64,000 nt of DNA, from the NCBI RefSeq assembly GCF_004359215.1, contig NC_090611.1, forward strand, positions 4,657,223 to 4,721,222, in the 5' to 3' direction. The position numbers were made by a program, and so were the translations under genes. The DNA comes from Bremia lactucae (Eukaryota > Oomycota > Peronosporomycetes > Peronosporales > Peronosporaceae). Positions 47,263 through 51,661 of the stretch are shown in pieces (within the stretch, counting starts at the first letter, position 1; every line of letters begins with the position of its first letter). The notes beneath the pieces are model-generated. The model saw nothing but the letters and a program-made list of their open reading frames with translations. It searched no databases and was not told where the DNA came from.

Positions 47263-48209
47263 TAATCTTCAAGCAAGATTCGAAGCGTAGAGCCAAGGTG
47301 GCAAAAGCATGCTCTTTAGCTCTCATTCCTGCGATTGAATACATATTTTTTTTCAATTTTGCTTTTTCTTTTTGTTTGCTGTCTTAAGACCAGTGTTCGG
47401 CCACTGTCTATTATTACACAGCAGATTAATTGGCACTCGTTTTAAAAGCGGCCGGCGTTGGGTTTGTATCTTTCTTGTGTCAATAGCTTAAGCATGGTTA
47501 AGAGAAATTCACACGCAATTAGATTTCCAGTAAGCTATGGAGAGAAGCAAAGCATCATAAATTGTTGTTTGAATGTCTTTTTAATACAAAGACTTCATTG
47601 AAAACGAGATGGCAAAGATAACCATTTTTCCTGGTGGCGCAAATTTGTTAACGACAGCTGCGCGTACATACTTATAGTGGCGAGCTTGCATGCGGTAGAT
47701 GCTAATATAAAGCGAAGGCTACAATTGCTACACGTTGCATGCGTCATTTGAATCACGACTTTAAGCAAAACAATTCCAAACAGTGGCTAAACTTTCCATA
47801 TGTGCGCCTCAGGTTGAATGGAGGTTGTTTATCAATGGATTAAAGTGAACGTGCAATGCAATAATTGACCAGACGTCGAGTAATGCTTCCACCTATGAGA
47901 CGATATGCACAAGAAGGAGTGAATAAAGTAAACGCCTATCAATTTTTAGATGGGCAATCTATTTCTCTGGCCTCTTTAAAGGACTTGAACGTGAAGGAAG
48001 AGCTGGCTGAAAGTTTTATTGCAGTTACCAAATAAATATGTTTTTGAGAGGTAAAATCTCCTCATTTAATGTGATTGGCTTATTTCACGCATGTATTGTG
48101 CCTGGAAGTGAAGGGGGGACGATAGCCTTTCGACGTACCTCTTTTGTGCTTAATTTGCAATTATTCGCGTTCGTGACTTCCACTTTTCACAATGTACGTT
48201 CGTGGACAC
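47263..48209. other. Intergenic region between lectin and TCF25 homologue
   Basis: About 0.95 kb with no recognisable gene or repeat. It holds the 3' UTR of the lectin and the promoter of the next gene. Confidence 0.5.
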
Positions 48210-50883
48210 ATGTCTCTCAAGTACTCTTCAACGATCTCATAAATGCTCTTAACGCCAGGTCTGCCCGCCAAGCCAATCGATTGGCCAAGGAGCGAAAGGC
48301 TGAAAGCAGCGAAAGAGATGTGGAGTCAGAAGACGATCACGAGCTGCAGGAGAAGCGCGCGACCAATGTAGGCTTTGCATTTCTGGCCGATTCGGACGCA
48401 AGTGAGGACAGCGGCGAGGAAGAAGAAGATCAGGTTTTTAAAGAGATTCAATTTTGACGGAATTCTCTTATTGGAACCCCGCACCCCTCATTACACTATG
48501 GGGAATTTCGGCTACAGGGCCTCCTCCCACCCAACTATCACACACCTTCGGTGCGGGTTGGCAGGGCGGCCATCCATTGGATGGTTGCTCGTCTGCTTTT
48601 TAGCCTATCTCCGGCGATGTGTCATCGTACCGCCCTCCGCGGGTATCGATCCACGTACCTCCCGGTCCCAGTTCCAGTGCTTAACCACTCGGCCACTGGG
48701 GTCGGTCATCAGGTTTTTAAAGAGCCGACCACCGTCGTGGTTTCTGTGCCAATGACGCGCACGAAAACGTGAGCATTGCTGTATAGTGTGGCATGATTTG
48801 TATTGGTTTGGCAGTAACGTGTCGAATGATATTGTAGCCAAACGAAGAAATCCAAGCGAAAATTAAATCGAAACGAAAAAGAGGAAACCGAATCCGTGGA
48901 CGATCTTTTAAAAGCGCTTGCAATTGAAACTAGAGAATCTATGGTCAACACGTCATCGTCGCTTTCGATCGACAAAGAGCCCTCACTCTTTGGTGTCGAC
49001 CTTAAATGTGCCAATGCCGATACAGAAATGAAGCGTCTTTTTGGCGTCAGTATTGTGACTTTGAACAATACCAATACTTTTGGTCAATTAAATTATTTTT
49101 CACAGGTAAAAGAAGGAAGTCGTGGTTCGACTCGACAATTTCATCGAACTTCTCGGTACTTTGACAATAAGTGTTTTATACAAGGACAAAAAAAACAGAA
49201 TTGTCGGCTAATACTATGTATTGGTAGCAAGAATCCCCGACTGCCACTAAAGAAGACAATGCTCGTGACACCTCTCGAGGATTGGCCTCGTCCACCAACG
49301 TTTATTCACGGAGGAATTCGCTGGACACGATCGAATGAACCGCAAGGCCTTGGCTGGAACAGTTTATGCAAGTATTACAAAGTAGTGTACTCGAGTGCGT
49401 ACGAAAAGGTACAATTAGCTGGTTTTATAAACTCTGGAAAGCATCGATTCGAGAATAATTGAGAATGTATATATTTTTTGCTGCTCTTGTTTTAGTCACA
49501 AGAGGAATTTCAATTGCTTCAGCGATCGCACGATCCCAATGTTATTGCTCACTTTTTACAGCGCTATCCATACCATATTGAGGCGCTCGTTACAATGACG
49601 GAAGTGTATCAACATCACGGCCAAATGGACCACGCTAGCGACTGTATTCAGCGATGTATATACGCCCTTGAATTGGCGTGGACTGACGACTTTGAGGTCA
49701 CGAAAGGACATTGTCGCATGGATATTCGTATTGAAACGAATGGGGGTGTTTTCAAAGCTCTTTTTCTATTGATGAAACAAGCTGGACGTCGTGGGTGTGT
49801 CCGTAGCGCGTTCGAGACGGCAAAGCTCGTGCTTGGTCTCGACCCAGAAGGCGATCCCATGAGTGTCGTCTTAGCAATTGACTACTATGCGCTCACGTCG
49901 CGCCAATGTCAGTTTGTTATTGACCTTGTTCACTCGAAAACCCTTGTCGTTGATCGATATGCCGATGAAGAAATGGTGCTTTCAAAGAATCAAGCTCGTC
50001 TGAAAGCAATCAAGAAGGATTCTATACATGACATTGCCATGTTGCCAAATCTTCAATTTTCACTAGGGCTTGCACAGTCTGTTTTTGGCTTGAAACACGT
50101 GATTGTCTCGATACATACTCACATTCTTTTTGCGTGTATTTAGTTTCTACCTCGGTAATGAAGTTGAAGGCAAGGAAAAAGTAGCGATCGCGTTGCTTCA
50201 TTTTCCAACACTTCTTGAAAAACTTTTGCATCAAATGGCTGCTATTTCGTCCTGTACGAGTTCAAGGATGGATAGAATTTTATTTTATTTCTATTTGAGT
50301 TTGAAACTCATTTAATTTCTATTGATTTTGGTGTGGCGTTTAGCTGCATGGCACTTGATTTTAGCCAATCGCGTGTTTGCAAAGGCACAAAACGTCGATA
50401 AAGTGCTGGAACATTTACTTGAGATTTACGTCACGCGGAATTGTTCTCTCTGGAAAGTAAAAGAAACGCAAGCTTTTCTGCTTCAAAGTGCGCAATATGC
50501 TCTTGATTCTCCGCAACTTGTGGCTGCAAACCCTCAAGTTTTAAAGCTGCCCACGTGTATGCACAAATACCTTCGTGCTGTCCTTGCTGGTACGAATGGA
50601 TTGAATCAAAACAAGTGCATTGAATTCGATTGTACTAACAGACTTTTAACTAGATTACTCGGACGACATTACGACGTTGCCTGCCGACCACCCGATGTTG
50701 CAGCCCCCCGAGCTTGAAAACGGTCAACTGCTGGATGCAGAAGCACGTGCGGCGCTTGTGCAGGCACAGGAGGTATTTGACGCGGGCAATTTGCCGGCTG
50801 ATGCCAATCCGTTGTTGCTTTTCCTACAGACGCTCTTGCCTTGGAATCAAGTGCAAGGCGCCGGTCAACGGCCGCCCTTATGA
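48210..50883 (+). CDS. TCF25: TCF25 (NULP1) homologue, multi-exon
   Basis: A model of joined exons gives about 615 residues: 48210-48220, 48259-48433, 48713-48768, 48838-49045, 49106-49155, 49228-49408, 49496-50076, 50144-50253, 50344-50589, 50654-50883. Phases agree at every junction and total length is a multiple of three. The N-terminus is basic then acidic with a Lys/Arg-rich patch; then LVTPLEDWPRPPTF, AHFLQRYPYHIEALVTMTEV, CIQRCIYALELAW, GCVRSAFETAKLVLGLDPEG and a C-terminal NPLLLFLQTLLPWN, all as in TCF25. Animal and yeast (Rqc1) relatives work in the ribosome quality-control complex. Branch-site-like TACTAAC and CTAAT precede acceptors at 50653 and 49227. Weak points are the 38-bp first intron, which supplies the ATG, and introns 49046-49105 and 49156-49227, which are multiples of three. 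A SINE lies in the second intron. Confidence 0.88.
48430..48724 (-). mobile_element. tRNA-derived SINE with 16-bp target duplication
   Basis: The insert 48446-48708 is flanked by exact 16-bp direct repeats TCAGGTTTTTAAAGAG (48430-48445 and 48709-48724). On the minus strand its head is tRNA-Ser/Leu-like: A box TGGCCGAGTGG (complement of 48685-48695) and B box GGATCGATACC (complement of 48642-48652), the two internal promoter elements for RNA polymerase III. An unrelated ~190-bp body follows. The TTTT/AA-containing target fits L1-type endonuclease insertion. It sits inside the coding region of the TCF25 homologue. Confidence 0.88.
48434..48712 (+). other. Predicted intron created by the SINE insertion
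   Basis: The target duplication contains AG|GT. Splicing from GT at 48434 to AG at 48712 removes exactly the SINE plus one copy of the duplication and restores the reading frame across GAT-CAG|GTT-TTT-AAA-GAG. A CTTAAC branch-like site is at 48680-48685, 27 nt before the acceptor. Without splicing the frame stops within about ten codons. Confidence 0.65.
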
Positions 50884-50975: not shown

Positions 50976-51661
50976 TGTAACGGGGTGTATCGTTATTGCA
51001 CGTTTAGTATGGGCTTATAATTAAGTTAGAGTTAACAGATAGAAAGAAGAGATACTTAATTATGTTTATACAGTTTTCATTTTACCCTCTTTAAGCCTCT
51101 GCATACACAAGTGTACGTGAAATAACGTAAAGGCACCATTCGCAACTAAAGCAGTGCGAAGTGGACTTGTACTGTAACGGGGCACTACGTCTTGTACTGC
51201 TTCAGTACAAGTCCACTTCACACTGCTTCAGTTGTGAGTGGTACCTTACGTTAGGTGACGTACACTGTACGTGCAGAGGAAGACTTCTCTTAAGACAAGT
51301 TAACTTAAGAGGGTAAAATGAAAACTGTATTAATATAGTTAAGTGTCTCTTAATCTATCTTTGTAAATGCTGACTTAACTATAAACTAATACTAAACATG
51401 TAAATGAATTCTTATCTCTATCTTATCTTGTAACACTATTTGATTACTTCTACAGCTGATTAGTCTGCGGAATAAATAGATGTAATGACCTATACCTATT
51501 TATAAATAAGAATTCAGGATATAACTATATAACGTAATATCCTCCAAATATTATGTACCTTTTAGATAATGTAGAAATTAACAACCTTTAAGTGTTAATT
51601 TCATGTAACGATACACCCCGTTACATGTACTGAAGCAGTACAAGTCGTAATGCCCCGTTAC
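50976..51661 (+). repeat. LTR, family A (+), interrupted by another LTR
   Basis: Outer LTR in two parts, 50976-51175 and 51625-51661, with a large internal deletion in the first part (about 240 bp shorter than 44930-45384). Five-bp target duplication TTTTT on both sides (50971-50975 and 51662-51666). It lies about 90 bp after the stop of the TCF25 homologue. Confidence 0.9.
51176..51624 (-). repeat. Solo LTR, family A (-), nested in the LTR above
   Basis: Complete 449-bp LTR in reverse orientation, TGTAACGGGGC (51176) to CCCCGTTACA (51624), with the target duplication TGTAC on both sides (51171-51175 and 51625-51629). It inserted into the palindromic GACTTGTACTG segment of the outer LTR. Confidence 0.93.

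Follow-up and report, generated by a model that had tools for sequence, protein, structure and literature searches.

Can a SINE that lands in a coding exon serve as a spliceosomal intron and leave the protein as it was? The Bremia lactucae locus described here raises this question. We analyzed a window of 64,000 nt (C2:4657223-4721222 of a 115.9-Mb, 220-contig assembly), in which a TCF25 gene carries a tRNA-type SINE within exon 2. The initial annotation, made from the letters of the window, proposed that this SINE has become an exact intron by inserting into an AG/GT target. How introns are gained is disputed, since so few new introns are recent enough for their origin to be read. The TCF25 case is attractive because it is recent and every part of it can be made out: both candidate splice sites are still visible, as are the duplication, the element, and the empty site.

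The gene at 48192-50883 on the plus strand is TCF25. The domain PF04910 was found on the translation P0001, and the best protein match is CCR75_001937 of B. lactucae. Translation and comparison with relatives give eight native introns of 60-90 nt, and the parts of the gene are as follows.

48192..48193, plus strand: coding end of exon 1, the AT of a split start codon (AT joined to G TCT GCC from 48259 reads MSARQ..., compare MSARQAKRL in P0002)
48194..48258, plus strand: native intron 1, 65 nt, GTACGT...CCAG
48259..48433, plus strand: part of exon 2 lying 5′ of the SINE, SARQANRLAKER...GFAFLADSD...EEEDQ, from alignment with relatives
48713..48768, plus strand: remainder of exon 2 lying 3′ of the SINE, VFKEPTTVVVSVPMTRTKT, from alignment with relatives
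48769..48837, plus strand: native intron, 69 nt, GTGAGC...TAG
48838..50883, plus strand: later TCF25 exons and introns, the exons open throughout, with PF04910 on P0001
49046-49105, 49156-49227, 49409-49495, 50077-50143, 50254-50343, and 50590-50653, plus strand: later TCF25 introns
50881-50883, plus strand: TCF25 stop codon, TGA

Exon 2 translates as MSARQANRLAKER...GFAFLADSD...EEEDQ and continues after the SINE with VFKEPTTVVVSVPMTRTKT. TCF25 was found in Phytophthora, Peronospora, Plasmopara, Hyaloperonospora, Pythium, Lagenidium, Aphanomyces, Saprolegnia, and Albugo, and the protein alignment took in nine of 37 relatives besides the Bremia entry. All nine have a GF[AS]FL block 5′ of the insertion site and a lysine-rich stretch 3′ of it; the linker between the two varies in length among them and aligns poorly. 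The two halves of exon 2 match the N-termini of the relatives, and coding is uninterrupted at the empty site, as first annotated. Intron 1 splits the TCF25 start codon as AT/G (window 48192-48259). Odd N-termini occur just before SARQAKRL in the deposited oomycete models P0006 and P0009, perhaps because predictors miss an intron in this place.

A second intact TCF25 copy, which the initial annotation raised as a counter-possibility, was not found: the genome search returned one full match and one 97-bp fragment with 99% identity on C4. This exon fragment (L032, C4:5447686-5447820, minus strand) may have arisen recently by a short templated insertion or by duplication. The piece of exon 2 before the SINE (48250-48433) has a single genome match, and the same search found no second allele of exon 2 in the assembly. 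In an unrooted tree of 12 TCF25 sequences, with a support of 0.29 at one inner node, the Bremia terminal branch measures 0.35 versus 0.19 for Plasmopara, its neighbor; none of the remaining downy mildews or Phytophthora exceeds 0.15 (the outgroup value of 0.31 is not comparable). In this comparison of TCF25 alone, the long branch is compatible with relaxed constraint, though the excess must be older than the SINE.

The element, its flanks, and the sites that bear on splicing are these.

48430..48445, plus strand: left target-site duplication, TCAGGTTTTTAAAGAG, with the donor CAG/GT at 48434
48446..48708, minus strand: tRNA-type SINE, 263 bp including an ambiguous tRNA-side end, antisense to TCF25
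48709..48724, plus strand: right target-site duplication, with the acceptor CAG ending at 48712
48434..48712, plus strand: candidate intron, the SINE plus one duplication, 279 nt, drawn from sequence geometry only
48455..48457, plus strand: in-frame TGA if the SINE is retained, from translation
48680..48685, plus strand: CTTAAC, a branch-like site that is the antisense A-box region, with no AG before the acceptor CAG
48434..48517, plus strand: alternative 84-nt candidate intron, from the donor of the 279-nt candidate to CTACAG, leaving 65 in-frame SINE codons

The perfect 16-bp target duplication reported at the outset is present at 48430 and 48709. On the plus strand of the window TCAGGTTTTTAAAGAG occurs only at these two positions, with a spacing of 279, and the match reaches one base further upstream (17 nt from 48429 and 48708). 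The claim of a tRNA-type SINE inside TCF25 coding sequence also holds, as the element is a dispersed repeat with A and B boxes and lies in exon 2. By the usual box patterns, the A box is TGGCCGAGTGG (48695-48685, minus strand) and the B box is GATCGATAC (48651-48643, minus strand). The sense strand of the SINE is the minus strand, so it is antisense to TCF25. Neither ARAGORN nor Rfam called a tRNA at the SINE; SINE heads are often too diverged for tRNA programs, so an absent call is not strictly defining. An Rfam match to CRISPR-DR6 (E 0.26, 18.7 bits versus a gathering score of 39) was dismissed as chance. tRNA-derived SINEs are described for Phytophthora infestans; like this one, they are short and dispersed, carry A and B boxes, and have target duplications.

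At least 51 genomic matches to the SINE are listed, counting itself and a few partial ones. Its 17-base end has 116 genome matches at no more than one mismatch (85 exact and 31 with one mismatch), and the reversed control has 0. In an alignment of 37 near-full copies, the TCF25 copy shows three differences from the family majority in about 263 columns, one of them private, and 23 of the 37 are as close or closer to the majority. These few differences, together with the perfect duplication, bear out the annotated youth of the insertion. Where flanks were available, the target ends AGAG before the element end, in antisense reading, in 36 of 43 copies. A script recognized the target duplication in 33 of the 43 copies read, array members being counted singly. 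It accepted lengths of 8 to 23 nt and tolerated a single mismatch in those of at least 12 nt; among the remaining ten copies, a few are spoiled by N or have imperfect duplications.

The SINE also forms head-to-tail pairs or arrays of 277-279-bp units, with one target duplication shared where flanks were read. Array sites include G000 C1:1878489, C8:680833, C13:1880126, C15:568357, C15:2097709, and C111:1030769, and the loci L012, L013, L020, L027, L029, L039, and L043. In L027 the targets of an old copy (83%) and a young copy (98%) are almost identical, which suggests that the SINE entered one site repeatedly rather than that a copy was duplicated. Insertion-site sequence is identical between L002/L047 (C159:890-1148) and L010/L034 (C107:563772-564028), and the tRNA-side end and its duplication differ; these copies are perhaps alleles or a recent segmental duplication. 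By eye, the copies L047 and L048 lie inside frames that resemble gypsy-type and copia-type reverse transcriptases.

Both splice sites are where the initial annotation put them, with the donor CAG/GT at 48434 and the acceptor CAG ending at 48712, and cutting out 48434-48712 restores the frame as it had stated (279 nt, or 93 codons). Only the AG/GT is informative here, because any insertion with a target duplication restores the frame automatically. If the SINE is retained, translation stops after 66 residues, and the frame is open beyond the TGA through the rest of the SINE. Insertion into a pre-existing intron was ruled out because the duplicated target is itself coding sequence whose two sides join with nothing missing. 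No transcript-derived protein fragments turned up among proteins of 0.55-1.75 times the query length.

The donor at 48434 is predicted to form a duplex with the U1 5′ end of -5.6 kcal/mol, a value that matches the strongest of the eight native donors of the gene (with the register not fixed). Of the 3,719 plus-strand GTs in the window, 7.2% pair with U1 as well as this donor, and the GTs inside the SINE at 48643, 48557, and 48701 bind more strongly (-6.2 to -6.5 kcal/mol). The donor reads GTTTTT, with TTT at +3 to +5 and without a purine at +3 or a G at +5. The branch-like CTTAAC was located correctly, at 48680-48685, 27 nt before the acceptor end. It did not evolve for splicing, because it is the A-box region read in antisense and 36 of the 37 near-full copies have it. 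An AG lies between CTTAAC and the element end in 27 of these 36; the TCF25 copy and eight others have none. The CAG of the target is therefore the first AG. Nine AG-free copies out of 36 are no rarity, and the sites favor splicing modestly.

Folded in isolation, CTTAAC is predicted to be unpaired at 0.99, the CTCAT of the 84-nt candidate at 0.11, and the donor at 0.33; the acceptors of the 279-nt and 84-nt candidates are similar (0.38 and 0.40), and the region as a whole is predicted to be just a little more stable than its shuffled versions (z -1.57). No CTRAY branch motif occurs within 48434-48712, where TTAAC (yTNAy) is present; CTRAY is found in only two of the eight native TCF25 introns, so its absence is not decisive. 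CTRAY is given as the commonest branch form in two Phytophthora species, with CTRAYK in about 27-31% of introns (PMC2483917). At 279 nt the candidate is three times as long as the longest of the native introns. Introns in the B. lactucae genome are reported to average 104 in length and to reach 9.3 kb at most (PMC6570648), so 279 nt alone does not exclude an intron.

We tentatively favor the reading that the SINE acts as an exact intron at 48434-48712, and we give it slightly less than an even chance. The SINE inserted recently, in antisense, into exon 2 of TCF25, of which one full copy was found, at a target that ended AGAG and whose duplicated 16 bp happened to hold CAG/GT. The spliceosome most likely rescues the pre-mRNA, at least in part. 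The left copy of the duplication would provide the donor, the CTTAAC of the antisense A-box region would act as the branch point, and the right copy would give the first AG after it. Splicing would then use the pair 48434/48712, the old TCF25 protein would be made unchanged, and the allele would presumably be fixed. It seems unlikely that an exactly spliced SINE allele is still polymorphic in B. lactucae with the antisense A-box region as a ready-made branch point; if that were so, any AG-free copy that inserted in antisense at AG/GT would be ready to act as an intron from the start. The branch-like motif in the antisense A-box region would explain on simple structural grounds how antisense tRNA-type SINEs could form introns.

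Another possible reading, though a less likely one, is that the SINE is retained and that the stop at 48455-48457 after 66 residues makes this TCF25 copy null. This would be an ordinary insertion mutation, and the isolate would either tolerate the loss or depend on an intact allele that dropped out when the consensus assembly was collapsed. The youth of the SINE and the long Bremia TCF25 branch agree with a broken allele, and the single assembly match of the exon before the SINE is expected if an empty allele collapsed. Rqc1, a yeast relative of TCF25, is dispensable, which we also count in its favor. The genome paper describes SF5, from which the window presumably derives, as 1.17% heterozygous and its assembly as a near-haploid consensus (PMC6570648). 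A null allele is harder to square with the conservation of TCF25 across oomycete genera and with a Bremia frame that is otherwise intact, or with the AG/GT, since a usable one is only about 3-4% likely in a random target. This lifts exact splicing far above its low starting probability, because the AGGT is a coincidence if the SINE is unspliced and a requirement if it is spliced. The case was, however, picked for the AG/GT itself, and a heterozygous null allele agrees with these data too. Rather improbable is the use of a different frame-keeping pair, such as 48434-48517 or 48402-48671, that takes out the stop but retains some of the SINE as new in-frame coding sequence in the variable acidic linker. 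Among 48 GT-AG pairs that remove the stop, 16 keep the frame without a stop (15 besides the exact pair, some with poor GAG or AAG acceptors), the SINE is open in frame past the TGA, and linker length differs among relatives. The pair 48434-48517 has a CAG, native length, and a CTCAT with its A 27 nt upstream, but the CTCAT is predicted to be buried in a hairpin. GTGAGG at 48402 is the best consensus donor (7/9), whereas 48402-48671 is without a branch-like motif in the stretch searched. Such pairs also change the protein, unlike the exact one.

A wider reading makes the SINE an introner-like family that forms introns genome-wide in Bremia. This is very improbable and already disfavored by the family-wide tests. 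The TCF25 geometry is like that of introners that draw both splice sites from the target, as presented in the introner study's examples (PMC9860276), and the antisense CTTAAC occurs in nearly all near-full copies; but the AG that follows it within most copies is unfavorable, and so are the insertion sites. From composition, AGGT should occur at one of the 11 positions scanned in about 3-4% of copies in each direction. In 85 copies it was seen 6-16 nt before the GAG of the target four times in antisense (TCF25 included) and five times in sense, versus 2.7-3.7 expected per direction. Two of the five sense matches are probably one duplicated site, because their matched sequence is identical; in the readable one (L014) the AGGT extends beyond the duplication. 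Empty-site frames are not above random either. In the 33 copies with a recognized duplication the longest such frame has a median of 109 codons versus 96 at random (2,752 positions from the window and 10-kb loci), and it reaches at least 120 codons in 13 copies versus 36% and at least 150 codons in 6 versus 24%. These six are TCF25, three that run through neighboring array SINEs (L043, and L012 twice), and the retrotransposon-like L047 and L048. No enrichment of SINE insertions in coding sequence was found among the 33 testable copies. The initial annotation thought of other copies with AG/GT in their duplications: further matches do exist, but at chance level and without coding-sequence enrichment. 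These tests cover about half of the copies, the flanks of 45 exact-end sites being outside the sample. On these figures, the AG/GT in TCF25 looks like a chance feature that survival has selected rather than the outcome of targeting.

Exact splicing of the TCF25 SINE would have precedents. A Ds element in maize reportedly became a new spliceosomal intron (work by Giroux in 1994), and a p-SINE1-like intron in rice CatA is said to be a SINE turned intron in a coding gene (Iwamoto, in 1998 and 1999). The likeness is a transposable element as an intron in a coding gene; the hosts and element families differ, and those cases reportedly have RNA or species comparisons, versus a single genome here. 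Transposon insertion into AGGT is an established intron-gain model, with 35 events listed in a table of the review that treats it (PMC3443670). As in that model, the duplication carries AGGT, its two copies give a donor and an acceptor, and the coding sequence would be unchanged on splicing. The TCF25 SINE family differs from it in targets that end AGAG (36 of 43) without a preference for AGGT, and splicing here is predicted. The introner study, in its Florenciella example, shows a transposable element in an exon that draws its donor and acceptor from the place of insertion (PMC9860276), a geometry that the TCF25 SINE shares. Its repeats of the DNA-transposon-like kind are 3-9 bp and its criterion is at least four similar introns, whereas TCF25 is a single candidate made by a retroposon with a 16-bp duplication, and no family-wide intron formation was found. 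Among the best literature matches, subscription journals being outside the coverage, none dealt with this SINE or with oomycete introns made by SINEs.

The analysis corrects the N-terminus of the deposited protein CCR75_001937. Its start, MLLTPGLPAKP..., is in the wrong frame and, read by hand, fits a predicted intron at 48368-48837. The model leaves out the SINE and the rest of exon 2 (window 48245-48837), a skip that was probably driven by repeat masking of the SINE. The gene models were made by MAKER with SNAP, bootstrapped from an RNA-seq assembly, according to the methods given with the genome (PMC6570648). We ruled out CCR75_001937 as proof of splicing at 48368-48837 because of this origin and because the frame of its N-terminus differs from that of the nine aligned relatives. 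Just 3′ of TCF25, at window 51047-51351, there are two nested inverted repeats with arms of 45 nt that are about 90% complementary, which are possibly another mobile element.
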